From Pirellulaceae bacterium (GTDB lineage Bacteria > Planctomycetota > Planctomycetia > Pirellulales > Pirellulaceae), in assembly GCA_030744095.1 (NCBI GenBank), contig JASLRF010000363.1:1-7328 (forward strand): DNA of 7,328 nucleotides. The letters are read 5' to 3'. Under the pieces are notes generated by a model. That model worked only from the letters and a program-made list of their open reading frames with translations. It was not told the DNA's origin and did not search any database. Both the position numbers and the translations under genes were made by a program. Shown here in pieces: positions 1 through 5,237 of the stretch; position 1 is the stretch's first letter; the number at the start of each line of letters is the position of its first letter.

Positions 1-132
1 GGCTTTAACAACAAACTAAAACTGATCACCAGAAAATCATATGGCTTTCGCACGCAACAAGCCTATGAAATCGCTCTCTATCACAACCTCGGAGCACTTC
101 CTCAACCTGACTTCACCCACAGATTCTTCTGA
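1..132 (+). CDS. Transposase, C-terminal fragment (probably ISL3 family)
   Basis: This frame is open from the first base of the window to a TGA at 130-132, giving 43 residues with no start in view. It contains GFNNKLKLITRKSYGFR followed by EIALYHNLGALP and ends in THRFF. A G-F-N-N-K-x-K-L...R-K-x-Y-G-F-R block close to the C-terminus is what I know from DDE transposases of the ISL3 type; the longer tail with a THRF ending is how I remember planctomycete members. The catalytic DDE residues would lie upstream, outside the window. The protein would cut and rejoin the ends of its insertion sequence. It converges on the FG-GAP lipoprotein gene and overlaps its 3' end in antisense by about 30 bases. 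The transposase identity is fairly secure; the family name is from memory and less so. Confidence 0.72.
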   Translation, partial: GFNNKLKLITRKSYGFRTQQAYEIALYHNLGALPQPDFTHRFF

Positions 133-140
133 GGAGGCAA
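1..140 (+). mobile_element. Right-hand end of an insertion sequence (ISL3-like)
   Basis: The transposase reading frame stops at 132, so the element's terminus should follow within a few to a few tens of bases. From about 150 rightward the minus strand reads as ordinary FG-GAP protein sequence (through the motif CGPK). The junction therefore lies roughly between 133 and 147; 140 is a placeholder. The other terminal repeat and the target-site duplication are outside the window. Confidence 0.6.
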
Positions 141-938
141 ATGTTTTGGCCCGCAGGCGTCTCGGAACTTGCCGCGTTTGTCATGGCAAACGGGATGGTT
201 TTGGAACGACCAATTCAAGTAATGTGCAATGTAAAGATCCAGTGTTCCATCACCGTTAAGATCGCCCCAGGCGGCGCTCGTACTCCACGAGTCGTCGACT
301 AATCCCGTGTCGCGGGCGATTTCTGTAAACGTGCCGTCTCCCTGATTAGAAAAAAGCTGTAGTCCTCCGAAGCCGGTCACCAAGACGTCGGGGAAGCCAT
401 CGTTGTCATAATCGCCAACTTCGCAGCCGTGGCTATAGAATCCGGTCGCATCGCCCAAAGCCGTAGATGTAACGTCTTCAAATCGCCAGTGCCCGAAATT
501 GCGAAACAGAGCCGGCGGTCTTCCGAGAATCGCTTCCTCTTCAAAATATCCGCCTCCCGCGAAGAACAAGTCCGTATTGCCGTCTTGATCGTAATCCAGC
601 ATTGCAACGCCGCCGCCCAGCCATTCGAGAATGCTATGATGTCCAGACTCGTGTCCGCTGGTGAAGGTAAAGTCGATTCCGGATTGCTCGGTAACTTCCA
701 CCAGGCGCAATTCATGGTTTACGGCCGCGTCGTTTTGCGGCGACGGCGTTGGTAAAGGAGTCGATGGCCTGTTGCATCCCCAAAGTAGAACAACACTTAG
801 TATGGCTGCGCCGGGCAGGTGAGAGACCTTAGCAGTGTTCGATCTTCTATTGTCGTCTTTCGCTCCGCGAAAGCACGTTCCTTTCGTGGAGCGAAAGGCG
901 ACTATCGGATAGTAATTCCTCGAACGATCCTTAGTCAT
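102..938 (-). CDS. CRTAC1-like FG-GAP repeat lipoprotein, C-terminus cut off by an insertion sequence
   Basis: The 278-residue product has a lipoprotein-type export signal: a hydrophobic stretch (about 42-53) ending in LLWGC, with Cys55 as the likely lipidated residue. Three FG-GAP calcium-binding loops follow: DYDQDGNTD (115-123), DYDNDGFPD (177-185) and DLNGDGTLD (226-234). A Cys pair (251 and 262, the second in ACGPK) is typical of the family. Such proteins usually continue for some 250 more residues to an ASPIC/UnbV domain. Here the frame runs into the insertion sequence at the window's left edge and stops, with the last dozen or so residues probably encoded by the element, so the gene is probably inactive or chimeric. 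The ATG lies one base past the stop of the TPR gene, suggesting translational coupling. Residues 2-36 come from a 107-base palindromic repeat; no other ATG lies before the lipobox. Family assignment is secure, function is not known. Confidence 0.8.
   Translation of the reverse strand: MTKDRSRNYYPIVAFRSTKGTCFRGAKDDNRRSNTAKVSHLPGAAILSVVLLWGCNRPSTPLPTPSPQNDAAVNHELRLVEVTEQSGIDFTFTSGHESGHHSILEWLGGGVAMLDYDQDGNTDLFFAGGGYFEEEAILGRPPALFRNFGHWRFEDVTSTALGDATGFYSHGCEVGDYDNDGFPDVLVTGFGGLQLFSNQGDGTFTEIARDTGLVDDSWSTSAAWGDLNGDGTLDLYIAHYLNWSFQNHPVCHDKRGKFRDACGPKHLPPQKNLWVKSG
829..935. repeat. 107-base nested-palindrome element, copy 1
   Basis: This copy matches 2210-2316 at 102 of 107 positions without gaps, in the same orientation, and identity ends sharply on both sides. 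The core is a 22-base stem (852-873 with 881-902) around a 7-base loop. Each arm also contains its own smaller hairpin, CTTTCGC and GCGAAAG around a 3-base loop (TCC or GGA), so two alternative folds exist. A weaker outer symmetry (GTTCGA on the left, TCGAAC on the right) extends the structure. One substitution at 887 weakens a stem pair in this copy. It resembles a MITE or a REPIN-like element; no protein of its own is encoded. It begins immediately after the ATG of the FG-GAP lipoprotein gene. Confidence 0.9.
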
Positions 939-939
939 T

Positions 940-2373
940 TCAGTGTGATTTTTTTTCTGGTGTCGAACTCTCGCTCAGCGCATTACGGTGAAAGCTGGCC
1001 AATTCCCGATAACTTGGGTCCTCGGCCGACTTGCCTTCATAATAATCTGCCAAAGCTCTGTGCGTTGGAGCGTGATTGGGTACTTGATTCAGGACACTTC
1101 GCAGCCAGAAAATACCGTTCTTTGGAACGCCATACTCCAAATAGATCACACCCACTTGGTAACGCGTTTCGACATCCGGATCTGGCTGTTCCGCCATGAT
1201 CACGGCCTTCTGAAGTTGCTCGCGGGCAAAGATGACCGCGTCGAAGTGGCGATGTGCCTCGTCGTTGTGCCCGAGTCCGCGGAGGGCGGTTGCCAGCGCA
1301 TAACGTATGTCAAAATCTCCTGGCTCGCGCTGGTGAAGTAGCCTTAGTCGTCGCAAGGCCTGGTCGTATTTGCCCTCTTCGACGTCTAATCGTGCCAGCT
1401 CCAGAGCAGCCTTGGTGTTCTCTGGATCGCCTTCCAGCACATCTCGCAGCAACTGCGCTCCTTCGTCGTTCCGCCCCAGATCACACAGACAGAGAGCCTT
1501 CCCAATTGCCGCGTCGAGCTTCGCAACTGGCGAGCGACTTGCCAAATCGAAGTACACTAACGCCTCGGCGTGCTGCTTACTGGAATGCAAACAGTGTGCC
1601 AGATGCAGCGCGGCCCGTGGGTGTGAAGCGTCGATTTCCAACGCTCTCTCAAAATGCTCGATCGCGGGAGCCCAGCTATCGTTGTCTTGGTCCATGACCC
1701 CCCGCAAAAAGTGAGGCTCTGCGACATTTGGAAAATCCGCAGCCCAAACATCCAGTAACTGATTGGCCATGCGATGGTTTTGGGTCTTTAGATATCCGAT
1801 CGCAAAGGCGTGCACGATCTCTTCTCCGTCACCATCGGGATTGAATAGCAACTCCGACAAATGCGGCCCGGCTTCGCGCATTTGTCCATCCTGGGCCAGC
1901 GCCAACCAATGTTCGCGCTGGATACGATCGGCGGGAAGGCCGAACTCCCTGGCCGTTGCCAAGTGCTTTTGGACGGCAGACATCTTGCCTTGGTGTCGAG
2001 CCACCCGAGCCATCAACCACTGCGTTTCCGCGTTTCTTGGCGATAGCCAGCTTGCCCGGACAAGCCATGCCTGCGCCTCGGAATAACGGTGTCCGGCCAG
2101 ACAACGCTGAGCGGCCCAATTCGGTAAAGACGCCCAACGATTTCGCTGGGCGAAAAGACACACGAGTAACACCGCCAGTATTCCAACAAGCACAAACTTG
2201 CGACGTCGGTTAGCAGTGTTCGATCTTTTATTGTCGTCTTTCGCTCCGCGAAAGTACGTTCCTTTCGCGGAGCGAAAGGCGACTATCGGACAGTAATTCC
2301 CCGAACGATCCTTAGTAACGTCTATGAATGACGCCACACTGAATCGCGTGGACTCTTTCATTCTTGTTGGCAT
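940..2373 (-). CDS. Membrane-anchored tetratricopeptide repeat (TPR) protein
   Basis: From ATG 2373 the product is 477 residues. A single hydrophobic helix (about 60-75, KFVLVGILAVLLVCLFA) follows a basic RRRK cluster, giving a signal anchor. The rest is helical TPR sequence; clear units include HFLRGVMDQDN...AIEHFERALEIDASHP, GKALCLCDLGRNDEGAQLL and LARLDVEEGKYDQALRRL. TPRs are protein-binding scaffolds, and the domain would lie outside the cytoplasmic membrane. The next gene in the operon is an FG-GAP lipoprotein, one base after this stop; such pairs are common in planctomycetes and may act together. Residues 20-54 are encoded by the 107-base palindromic repeat. The start is uncertain: the frame is open from a GTG at 2463, and ATGs at 2373 and 2361 are equally plausible. 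None has a good Shine-Dalgarno sequence. I chose 2373 because it leaves only a short leader before the repeat and anchor. Confidence 0.82.
   Translation of the reverse strand: MPTRMKESTRFSVASFIDVTKDRSGNYCPIVAFRSAKGTYFRGAKDDNKRSNTANRRRKFVLVGILAVLLVCLFAQRNRWASLPNWAAQRCLAGHRYSEAQAWLVRASWLSPRNAETQWLMARVARHQGKMSAVQKHLATAREFGLPADRIQREHWLALAQDGQMREAGPHLSELLFNPDGDGEEIVHAFAIGYLKTQNHRMANQLLDVWAADFPNVAEPHFLRGVMDQDNDSWAPAIEHFERALEIDASHPRAALHLAHCLHSSKQHAEALVYFDLASRSPVAKLDAAIGKALCLCDLGRNDEGAQLLRDVLEGDPENTKAALELARLDVEEGKYDQALRRLRLLHQREPGDFDIRYALATALRGLGHNDEAHRHFDAVIFAREQLQKAVIMAEQPDPDVETRYQVGVIYLEYGVPKNGIFWLRSVLNQVPNHAPTHRALADYYEGKSAEDPSYRELASFHRNALSESSTPEKKSH
2210..2316. repeat. 107-base nested-palindrome element, copy 2
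   Basis: This is the second copy of the element at 829-935, with the same length and orientation. Its core stem (2233-2254 with 2262-2283, loop TACGTTC) is nearly perfect, with one G-T pair. The two copies differ at 2228, 2255, 2268, 2291 and 2301, all C/T transitions on this strand. It sits inside the TPR coding frame between the presumed start region and the basic, hydrophobic anchor. GACGT occurs just outside each end (about 2203-2207 and 2317-2321), but not adjacent in the same way, so I do not claim a target duplication. Confidence 0.9.
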
Positions 2374-2419
2374 AGCGGTCGGAGATTTCGCATGGGCGGT
2401 TTTGTGCTTGGATTCTATC

Positions 2420-2425
2420 AATATA
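2420..2425 (-). promoter_or_regulatory. Possible -10 element for the TPR/FG-GAP operon
   Basis: On the minus strand TATATT lies about 47 bases upstream of ATG 2373, in the otherwise unassigned stretch before the TPR gene. No convincing -35 box precedes it; the hexamer 18 bases upstream is TGTACT. If this is the promoter, the GTG at 2463 cannot be the start, which would support 2373 or 2361. This is a weak call. Confidence 0.2.
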
Positions 2426-2605
2426 CACTCCCGTCCGATCGGCAGTACACCAAACTTCAACACGCCTTAGCGGCCATGTTGACTGAGGGAGCAACGATGC
2501 CGGTTGGCCGCGTAGCTGCGGAATCGATATGCAAGCGCAATAGTGATAGTAGTAAGCACACGGAGTACGCCTGCTACTTTGGTTGCGGCGGTCACACCGT
2601 ATTCC

Positions 2606-3308: not shown

Positions 3309-4055
3309 ATGACGTTTCACAATCATAACTCCTTGCGGCTGCCGCTTTTGTTGGCGGTTCTGTTTTTCGTCAAGTTCGCTGAGGCTCAGGAATCCACGCG
3401 TCCACGGCATCTGATTCTCGTCGCCGGTCAATCGAACGCGGTTGGGTTTGATGCCAGGCCGACCGAGTTGCCACCAAATGAGCGCGATAGAGACGTCATG
3501 TTCTGGTGGCGCTGCGGTGATCCACCGCCAGACGAGCATGATTCGATCGGAGCTAAGTGGTCTCACTTGCAACCGCAGCCGCTGGGCAGCCCCATCACTC
3601 CGCGACGCGACCGACAGTATGGCAATTTTGCTCAGGCCGAGGGTGGATTTGGGCCGGAGATCGGCCTGGCCAGACACCTCCTTGCCAGGCAGCCAGCTCA
3701 GCGACTGGCAATTGTCAAAGCGGCGTTCAGCGGAACTGGCATGCGGACGGACTGGGATCATTCCAGTGAAGGCGACGAAGGCAGTTGCTACCGCTCGCTG
3801 GTTCGTGAAACGCGGTCGGCATTGAAATCCGCGAGAAACGACGGACAGGAATTGCAGCTGCGGGCCATGGTCTGGGTCCAAGGCGAAAGCGATGCGAACG
3901 CGGAAGATGCGCCGCAGTACACCGGACGGCTGCGTGCGATGATCGCCGCGTTGCGACAAGATCTGAAGGCACCCGGACTGACGGTGCTGCTGGGCGTCAA
4001 CACGCGATTTCTGGAAGGACGAAACAAGTTCATGCCGAAAATTGTGGCGGCATAA
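3309..4055 (+). CDS. Secreted SASA-domain carbohydrate esterase, cut short by an in-frame stop
   Basis: The 248-residue product begins with a signal peptide (hydrophobic about 11-21, likely cleavage after AEA at 26). The start is supported by GAAGGG 6 bases upstream. The body is a sialate O-acetylesterase (SASA) domain of the SGNH type: GQSNAVG with nucleophile Ser42, GGFGPEIG (112-119) and WVQGESDA (189-196). Such enzymes remove acetyl groups from sugars outside the cytoplasm. The frame stops at TAA 4053-4055, just after FMPKIVAA. The same frame then resumes with KEVAGSDPLVEYVDTS and ANPVHFDAKG, which is the normal end of a SASA domain and carries its catalytic His. As written, the product lacks that residue and is probably inactive. 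One C-to-T change (CAA, Gln, to TAA) explains it. The intact gene would be 3309-5066, 585 residues, a SASA plus alpha/beta hydrolase fusion. Confidence 0.82.
   Translation: MTFHNHNSLRLPLLLAVLFFVKFAEAQESTRPRHLILVAGQSNAVGFDARPTELPPNERDRDVMFWWRCGDPPPDEHDSIGAKWSHLQPQPLGSPITPRRDRQYGNFAQAEGGFGPEIGLARHLLARQPAQRLAIVKAAFSGTGMRTDWDHSSEGDEGSCYRSLVRETRSALKSARNDGQELQLRAMVWVQGESDANAEDAPQYTGRLRAMIAALRQDLKAPGLTVLLGVNTRFLEGRNKFMPKIVAA
4053..4055 (+). other. In-frame TAA splitting the SASA-hydrolase fusion gene
   Basis: The stop is in frame with both flanking coding segments (3309 to 4083 is 774 bases, 258 codons), and no insertion or deletion is needed to join them. In SASA proteins this position, between MPKIV-A-A and K-x-V-A, commonly holds a glutamine, so TAA most simply derives from CAA. 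It could be a true nonsense mutation, a sequencing error or a read-through codon. Confidence 0.8.
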
Positions 4056-4082
4056 AAGGAAGTCGCCGGTTCTGATCCTCTG

Positions 4083-5066
4083 GTGGAGTACGTCGACACG
4101 TCAAAGGCATCGATCGCCAATCCCGTGCACTTCGACGCGAAAGGAACCCTCGAGGTCGGTCGACTGTTCGCCGAATGCCTGATTGAACTCGAAAATGACA
4201 AACTTGCTGCCGCTGCCAAACCAGCAGATCAGATTGTTTCCGTCTGGCCGAACGATCCTCCCGGAGATGATCGTGACGTGGGACCGGAACGGGACTTCAC
4301 AAAGCCAGCCGATAAGCTGATCGCAGGTCGTCGCATCATCAAACTCGGCAACGTCTCCAAACCCGAACTTCATCTGTATCTGCCGCCAGAGGAGATACGA
4401 AATGGCTCGGCAATGGTGATCTGCCCGGGCGGTGGATTTCACATTTTGGCCTGGGACCTGGAAGGGACCGAAGTGGCCGAGTGGCTGACGTCGATCGGCG
4501 TGACGGCAATTGTCCTGAAGTACCGTGTCCCGACCAACAGCATCGATCCCGCCTGGCTGCCACCGGTCCAGGATGCGCAGCGCGCGATGAGTCTGGTGCG
4601 GCAGCGTGCGTCGCAATGGCATCTGAACGAAGACCGGATTGGCATCCTTGGTTTTTCCGCCGGTGCCGTCACTGCCGTTCGGACATCGCTTGCTACAGAG
4701 CGACTCTACGAGTCTTGCGACGATGCCGACTCCAAGCCATTTCACGCCAACTCGGCGGTAATCCTCTACCCCGGCGGTCTGGTCAACAAAGACGGCACGG
4801 CGCTGCTGGACGACATCATTGTCACCAAAGACGCACCGCCGATGTTCTTCGCGCACGCCTTCGATGATCGTGTTCGAGTCGAAAGCAGCCTGCAACTTTT
4901 CCTAGCCTTGAAACGCGCCAACGTACCATCCGAACTGCATGTCTACGACGCCGGCGGACACGGTTATGGACTGCGGCCTGTTCTTAAACACCCCGTGACA
5001 ACCTGGCCCGCACGGTGCGAAGACTGGCTGCGACGCCTGGAGTGGGTCAGTCGTTTGGAGGATTGA
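4083..5066 (+). CDS. Alpha/beta hydrolase (feruloyl/xylan-esterase-like), distal part of the SASA fusion
   Basis: The 327 residues start at a GTG; no good ribosome binding site precedes it, and the true translation may begin elsewhere or need read-through of the TAA at 4053. Residues 1-40 are the tail of the SASA domain (NPVHFDAKG with its catalytic His). After a linker comes an alpha/beta hydrolase of the BD-FAE/Aes type: oxyanion loop CPGGGFH (PGGG at 115-118), nucleophile elbow GFSAG with Ser192, acid residue in HAFDDRV (Asp261 or Asp262) and GGHGYG with His293. All triad residues are present, so this domain could fold and act if made. Without the upstream signal peptide it would stay in the cytoplasm. 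Relatives cleave acetyl or feruloyl esters on plant or algal polysaccharides; the substrate here is unknown. An intact CocE-like hydrolase gene follows on the same strand. Confidence 0.8.
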   Translation: MEYVDTSKASIANPVHFDAKGTLEVGRLFAECLIELENDKLAAAAKPADQIVSVWPNDPPGDDRDVGPERDFTKPADKLIAGRRIIKLGNVSKPELHLYLPPEEIRNGSAMVICPGGGFHILAWDLEGTEVAEWLTSIGVTAIVLKYRVPTNSIDPAWLPPVQDAQRAMSLVRQRASQWHLNEDRIGILGFSAGAVTAVRTSLATERLYESCDDADSKPFHANSAVILYPGGLVNKDGTALLDDIIVTKDAPPMFFAHAFDDRVRVESSLQLFLALKRANVPSELHVYDAGGHGYGLRPVLKHPVTTWPARCEDWLRRLEWVSRLED

Positions 5067-5174
5067 CGTTCTATGACCGGGACCTATTGATCCGCCTCCG
5101 AAATACGGACCAACATGCTGGTAGTGGTTCATCGCCTGCGAGTGTGACTACAATGCACCATGAATGAACGAACG

Positions 5175-5198
5175 AATCAATCAATCAATCAATCAATC
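5175..5198 (+). repeat. Tetranucleotide microsatellite, six AATC units
   Basis: AATC is repeated six times without interruption, preceded by GAAC/GAAT units of the same period and flanked by GAACG on the left and CGTTC on the right. It lies 40 bases upstream of the preferred CocE-like start (5238). It is also inside an in-frame extension of that gene beginning with ATG 5160, where it would encode alternating NQSI. Repeats of this kind can gain or lose units by slippage. Confidence 0.85.
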
Positions 5199-5237
5199 GT
5201 TCTTTTTGTCTCCGAGAACGGGTTAGGAAGTATAGCG

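Follow-up and report, generated by a model that had tools for sequence, protein, structure and literature searches.

A palindromic REP-dimer element read in frame near the start of two adjacent planctomycete genes, probably a tolerated mobile insert

Two adjacent open reading frames (ORFs) of a Pirellulaceae bacterium, one for an FG-GAP lipoprotein and one for a membrane-anchored TPR protein, each read through a copy of the same palindromic element close to their beginning. Both are located on contig JASLRF010000363.1, of which the 7,328 nucleotides (nt) analyzed here are called the window (coordinates in Table 1). We propose, with a probability of about 0.82, that the element is a non-autonomous mobile palindrome which was independently inserted into two coupled genes and is tolerated as a translated insert without demonstrated benefit. 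This proposal builds on a homologous FG-GAP protein that is free of the element and on related elements that are read in frame in other planctomycete genes, among them a tRNA synthetase.

Two copies of one element share the only open frame

A preliminary description of this DNA, made from the letters alone, had reported two palindromic copies of 107 bases in the same orientation. The repeat search of the window agrees with this: the copies are 95% identical, their orientation is identical and each contains an inverted repeat of 25 nt that encloses a loop of 7 nt. In our judgement, 95% identity over 107 nt is far beyond chance. The core of the element is a dimer of repetitive extragenic palindromic (REP) units, in which GTCG(C/T)CTTTCGCTCCGCGAAAG occurs twice in inverted orientation across a spacer of 7 nt, and by inspection the REP unit CTTTCGC-TCC-GCGAAAG consists of a 7-bp stem and a 3-nt loop. 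In both copies the flanking TTAG repeats are spaced by 102 nt, which corresponds to a net gain of 34 codons. The peptide, initially given as 35 residues, is thus one residue shorter as a net insert, and its position directly before the signal or the anchor stands.

According to the ORF list, the FG-GAP ORF reads copy 1 as ...DRSRNYYPIVAFRSTKGTCFRGAKDDN... ahead of its lipoprotein signal, and the TPR ORF reads copy 2 in the same frame as ...DRSGNYCPIVAFRSAKGTYFRGAKDDN... ahead of its membrane anchor. A three-frame check of the 102-nt unit revealed stops in frames 0 and 2 of the minus strand and an open frame 1, which is the frame used by both genes, as had been claimed; on the plus strand exactly one frame is open as well. 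Taken alone, the frame common to both copies is weak evidence, as we estimate the chance of this at random phase to be about 1 in 9.

The element peptide is basic, with a net charge of +6 and +5 in the two copies (hand count). The copies differ at 5 sites, and all 5 differences are non-synonymous; these substitutions give no sign of a constraint on the peptide, although five changes cannot exclude one. Compared by eye with the copy at locus L008, which is close to the consensus, copy 1 has 3 and copy 2 has 2 private changes. Changes private to each copy fit two separate inserts; a local duplication of one copy from the other was also considered and is disfavored by the same private changes. 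An assembly or duplication artefact is hardly credible: the window does resemble a metagenome contig, but the sequences flanking the copies differ, the copies themselves are not identical and the TPR homologue P0004, which originates from other contigs, carries the element at the corresponding position.

Both copies are predicted to fold strongly as RNA, with energies of -40.4 and -46.6 kcal/mol (z -4.8 and -6.6 versus shuffles). This would suit an element that functions through an RNA hairpin at the 5' end of each gene, by attenuation, by an influence on mRNA stability or by modulating coupled translation, with an open frame that is merely incidental. Four further copies of the 107-nt type point in the same direction, since they precede likely genes or lie between them, and for some species many REPs at the N-terminal ends of ORFs have been argued to be non-coding and to act post-transcriptionally (PMC3733652; this source and PMC10969869 are cited from excerpts throughout). 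However, any REP dimer folds strongly, and a conserved arrangement was not seen, as the exact REP-core pattern matched in none of 30 TPR homologue loci. Furthermore, the sole candidate start of the FG-GAP gene described below precedes the element, so that copy 1 is translated through if a usual start codon is used. We therefore consider a function as RNA hairpin unlikely.

An element-free FG-GAP protein

Within the first 60 codons of the FG-GAP ORF the sole ATG, GTG or TTG is the ATG at position 938, which sits 1 nt past the stop of the TPR gene. As this only in-frame start precedes the element, copy 1 lies inside the FG-GAP coding sequence. Before P0057 was found, the start of the empty gene had been predicted from the flanks as ATG ACT AAG GTC TCT CAC. 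The protein search revealed P0057, an FG-GAP protein of 437 amino acids with 96% identity over 83% of the query, whose start MTKVSHLPGAA... (MTKVSHLPGAAILSVV; MTKVSHLPGAAILSVVLLLGCNRSS) equals the sequence predicted for the empty site, where the window has MTKDRSRNYYPIVAFRSTKGTCFRGAKDDNRRSNTAKVSHLPGAAILSVVLLWGCNRPS. The FG-GAP protein of the window is P0057 plus 34 inserted residues, and elsewhere 9 of 230 residues differ. A precise empty site in the DNA of the P0057 lineage would be expected to read ATGACTAAGGTCTCT at the junction. The suggestion that a palindrome resembling REPINs or miniature inverted-repeat transposable elements (MITEs) can become an in-frame N-terminal segment is thus borne out for the FG-GAP ORF, together with the in-frame relatives in other genes such as valS. 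The gene is not intact in this contig: the copy is at its start, and an ISL3-type transposase end interrupts the other end. The P0057 protein continues past window position ~141, where this transposase end cuts the FG-GAP gene.

Among the listed FG-GAP homologues, which number 239 and come from the best 120 of 443 and the best 120 of 1220 matches, none has a REP-type peptide. Regarding the coupling of both genes, the TPR stop and a candidate FG-GAP start share 4 nt in loci L031 and L051 and 11 nt in L042. Such an overlap was found in 3 of 11 same-strand orthologous pairs; in the remainder the spacing is wider or cannot be read clearly. Another 5 loci have their FG-GAP match on the opposite strand or upstream.

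In the TPR gene the element is in frame as well. The homologue P0003 begins MKVSRRRKLLVG at the point where the element of the window ends (NRRRKFVLVG), and P0004, with 93% identity over the aligned 44% of the query, carries the element at the same position of the TPR protein. Among the 56 TPR homologues listed, P0004 alone has a REP-type peptide. In its later part the P0004 protein runs out of frame, which is due to either a pseudogene or a sequence error.

In-frame dimers in other planctomycete genes

For the analysis of related elements we collected 115 unique dimers from 166 loci, most of which were picked by similarity to the window element or by the exact core pattern, so that the sample is not random. 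Dimers were classified by a codon-usage score on both flanks, and an in-gene call requires coding on both sides. Of 111 classifiable dimers (4 more are located at contig edges), 14 are in frame and flanked by coding sequence on either side, 3 are on the same strand in another frame and none is in frame with a stop. The remaining ones have coding on one side (32/111) or on neither (62/111), and a general role at the N-termini of export and anchor proteins is not supported. Over five settings of the classifier the number of in-frame dimers varied between 14 and 17 of 111, compared with 42-54% of 2300 positions after random placement in the same loci. In one setting a single dimer was in frame with a stop, and at looser thresholds the same-strand cases in another frame rose to 8-9. 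Dimers are thus depleted inside genes compared with random placement, and those inside genes mostly retain the frame. Copies located mainly between genes, at random orientation and frame, together with protein starts downstream of the element by mass spectrometry, had been named in the preliminary description as the outcome that would argue against its claim; of these two parts, a position mainly outside genes is what the copies elsewhere show.

The 14 in-frame dimers belong to 13 proteins, 12 of which match Pfam families, including a sulfatase, DUF1592/DUF1588 proteins, a DUF1553 protein and a valyl-tRNA synthetase. The latter, encoded in the metagenome-assembled genome (MAG) G271, contains a REP insert of 20 residues (ESVGVRSANAIPFAERKATM) that is absent from all 20 aligned relatives (24 fetched); its residues 256 and 287 align to residues 204 and 209 of the Thermus enzyme. 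A second valS copy was not seen in G271, where the only other match is partial with 30% identity, although this MAG is possibly not complete. The valyl-tRNA synthetase of G239 (locus L197) has an unrelated, longer glycine/proline-rich insert of ~30 residues almost at the position of the REP insert. A DUF1592-type protein of MAG G259 (L095) has two in-frame dimers, at 1501-1550 and 2109-2164, with more dimers on the same contig.

N-terminal cases cannot be counted by the in-gene classifier, because it demands coding on both sides. A separate check of copies not called in frame revealed at least 37 arrangements with coding that reads away from the dimer, of which 24 are open through the dimer and 16 have an upstream start. 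Two of them, L063 and L080, have no start codon in the next 30 codons, and both have an ATG soon after. A second N-terminal case as clear as that of FG-GAP was not found in the sampled dimers.

The in-gene dimers prefer a certain register: 8 of 14 read VAFRSAK and then FAERKAT, whereas LSRSERR is not read by any of them. Of 194 readings in copies without an in-frame call, 72 are open in the LSRSERR register, 77 in the FRGAKGD and 112 in the FAERKAT register. Stops can therefore account for only some of this bias, which is seen in a small sample. It is conceivable that the element has been shaped for translatability, with a net length divisible by three, mostly stop-free core arms and a preferred register, and that it repeatedly supplies basic peptides, but we consider this quite improbable. 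If true, mobile palindromes would repeatedly provide proteins with ready-made basic peptides, including N-terminal segments of exported proteins.

The same bias could also be seen as a sign that the peptide itself is a useful N-terminal segment kept by selection, such as a basic n-region that aids export or anchoring. Such a role would fit the net basic charge, the common frame of both copies directly before a signal or an anchor and the retention of the TPR copy in P0004. On the other hand, all differences between the copies are non-synonymous, even if five changes are not decisive, the peptide occurs in none of the listed FG-GAP homologues and P0057 lacks it. Together with the missing second clear N-terminal case in our sample, this makes a selected peptide very improbable.

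Distribution of the element family

A specific pattern of the element matched two planctomycete MAGs, with a few copies in their genomes. Matches to the REP-dimer core are more widespread: in the order of G002, at least 38 of 170 genomes have one at E 1e-6; this is a lower bound, as at most five candidates were scored per genome and several genomes had 10 listed matches. In the order of G001 no further carrier was found (1/154 genomes, namely G001 itself). On each strand of G256 there are 13 to 17 exact cores. Contigs of a viral collection also contain core dimers and single units, and L007 contains single units. A plasmid collection had no match to the element at 1e-5, and Rfam had no match in the window at gathering scores.

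All other copies of the 107-nt type that could be placed (L008, L009, L012, L018) are located upstream of or between likely genes, and open frames without clear genes cross or touch some of them. In the L018 copy much of the core is missing. TAA is present on both sides of both window copies and of L012 and L018. At the G256 locus L056 and at several of the loci L119-L131 the REP-dimer core is embedded in another, longer palindrome (GGATCGGCGCATCAAT...ATTGATGCGCCGGTCC). The G256 loci show that REP-dimer cores are common to different outer shells, and that the spacers between the arms vary.

Y1 transposases (PF01797) are encoded in 12 of 12 genomes, with 79 matches. A linkage to REP-associated tyrosine transposases (RAYTs) was not found, as a REP was located within the fetched flanks of 1 of the 30 Y1_Tnp loci examined.

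A tolerated mobile insert as the favored explanation

Taken together, we assume that the mobile unit has a length of ~98-99 nt and consists of a REP dimer, as a REPIN-like core, within a longer imperfect inverted repeat. It would have entered one operon in two independent events, at sites that read ACTAA on the coding strand, and TAA or CTAA was apparently duplicated upon insertion, leading to the net gain of 102 nt. The frame would survive whenever the phase of the site matches the single open frame of the element on that strand; we infer that the frame was kept in both genes because of this match and of the net gain of 102 nt. As a result, 34 extra basic residues would lengthen the cytoplasmic segment before the lipoprotein signal of the FG-GAP protein or the membrane anchor of the TPR protein. 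The inserts may have survived because this N-terminal cytoplasmic segment probably tolerates additional residues. The insert is thus probably tolerated, and presumably neutral, mobile DNA.

Several observations weigh against this explanation. The empty site of FG-GAP is known from a protein record only, which originates from a 1519-bp contig, and the FG-GAP gene of the window is truncated by the transposase end. The target duplication is only a candidate, as L008 has no TAA on the left and the ends of L009 differ. A transposase linked to the element was not found in the sampled relatives. A close empty orthologue of the TPR gene was not found either, as the matches listed in searches of 170 and 397 genomes all have an identity of 40% or less. 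Finally, both genes may be decaying, because FG-GAP is cut by the transposase end and P0004 is frameshifted further on.

For copy 2, further points concern the translation start. P0001, the TPR product of the window itself, is listed with a start far downstream, although starts in databases are predictions. When the window is compared with P0004, 8 of 68 residues are changed in the part up to the end of the element and 5 of 152 in the part that follows (p = 0.026). Taken by itself, the element has 3 changes in 33 residues, which is not significant (p = 0.15). Because the residues up to the end of the element diverge more, this comparison suggests that TPR translation may begin downstream. The TPR copy would then be an extragenic 5' leader through which the ORF only extends. 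Family members just upstream of likely starts with a frame open through the element, for example L063, L066, L070, L074 and L080, are compatible with such a leader, as is the GTG at TPR codon 91, six codons past the element and into the anchor region. A start at this GTG would, however, lose the RRRK stretch common to P0003, and for FG-GAP a leader is ruled out for the usual start codons and contradicted by P0057. We regard a leader in front of the TPR gene as possible but rather doubtful.

The favored explanation of a tolerated mobile insert adds a REP-dimer family of many planctomycete genomes to the mobile palindromes that code for protein in frame, of which those of Rickettsia are best known. 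It comes with an element-free protein for one insertion and an insert in a tRNA synthetase, by which the question of a tolerated versus a useful insert becomes directly testable. In addition, the results are a warning for genome annotation, as some N-termini and internal segments of planctomycete proteins are mobile DNA.

Coordinates and other features of the window

The coordinates of all features are collected in Table 1. Apart from the two genes, a SASA-type acetylesterase ORF (3309-4055) in the region 3309-5066 ends with TAA and is followed on the same strand by a BD-FAE-like hydrolase ORF from 4083; the pair may represent two separate genes or a single fusion gene that has been split. A run of the tetranucleotide AATC is located at 5160-5200 at the start of an S15 peptidase ORF, whose true start is uncertain.

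Table 1. Positions of the element copies, their parts and the surrounding ORFs in the window
Feature	Position	Strand	Basis and remarks
ISL3-type transposase, C-terminal end	1..132	+	PF01610, E 1.2e-4, 22.4 bits, just under the 23-bit cut-off; interrupts the FG-GAP gene
FG-GAP (CRTAC1-like) lipoprotein ORF	102..938	-	ATG 938-936; homology to P0057 ends near 141, truncated
Palindromic element, copy 1	829..935	-	Repeat search; follows the second or third codon of the FG-GAP gene
TTAG, copy 1 boundary	829..832	.	Read from sequence; may be a target duplication (coding strand: TAA or CTAA)
REP-dimer core, copy 1	852..902	.	Two inverted GTCG(C/T)CTTTCGCTCC(G/A)CGAAAG arms, 7-nt spacer
TTAG, other copy 1 boundary	931..934	.	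Read from sequence; 102 nt from the first
TPR ORF	940..2463	-	Start candidates above the element: codons 1, 2, 15, 31, 35, 43; below: GTG codon 91
Palindromic element, copy 2	2210..2316	-	Repeat search, ORF list; in the TPR reading frame, directly before RRRK and the membrane anchor
TTAG, copy 2 boundary	2210..2213	.	Read from sequence
REP-dimer core, copy 2	2233..2283	.	Two inverted REP arms as in copy 1
TTAG, other copy 2 boundary	2312..2315	.	Read from sequence; 102 nt from the first

Comparison with known systems

REPINs consist of two inverted REPs with a short spacer and are scattered through genomes. The planctomycete core corresponds to this, as it is composed of two inverted REP hairpins with a short spacer, is repeated within and across genomes and occurs together with single REPs; it differs in that no RAYT gene flanked by the same REP was found in the sampled relatives. 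With MITEs the element shares its short length, its non-autonomous nature, imperfect terminal inverted repeats and an apparent short target repeat, whereas a parent transposon was not found.

The preliminary description knew of no described function for such an element, and a description of this planctomycete REP-dimer family was not found among the literature matches listed, but related intragenic REPs and Rickettsia palindromic elements (RPEs) that are read in frame have been described (PMC3733652; PMC10969869). Among intragenic GTAG- and CGTC-tagged REPs, dimers within ORFs code for 20-30 residues in several bacteria, including repair genes and tRNA synthetases; a notable share of them is located at N-termini, sometimes two dimers occur per gene, and some are nested in longer palindromes (PMC3733652, Di Nocera et al., 2013). 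Several of these features recur here, as planctomycete dimers code for in-frame residues, occur twice in one gene (L095), are found in a tRNA synthetase and are nested in a longer palindrome. The CGTC-tagged REPs of that paper have stems of 8-9 bp, loops of 4-5 nt and mostly CCA tails (PMC3733652), and by this description the planctomycete unit, with its 7-bp stem and 3-nt loop after GTCG(C/T), is set apart from them.

RPEs have a length of ~150 bp and interrupt unrelated genes without loss of the frame, in which they are read as a conserved peptide; some of them are located at N-termini and reported to be expressed (PMC10969869; PMC3733652). They belong to another phylum, and nearly half of the reported RPEs lie within ORFs (PMC10969869), compared with 14 of 111 dimers in frame inside genes here. 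Like RPEs, the planctomycete element is read in frame without stops, as is evident from FG-GAP versus P0057, from valS and from the in-gene dimers, and translation of the insert is putative. By analogy, the planctomycete element would work like RPEs and intragenic REPs, which is a likeness in mode.

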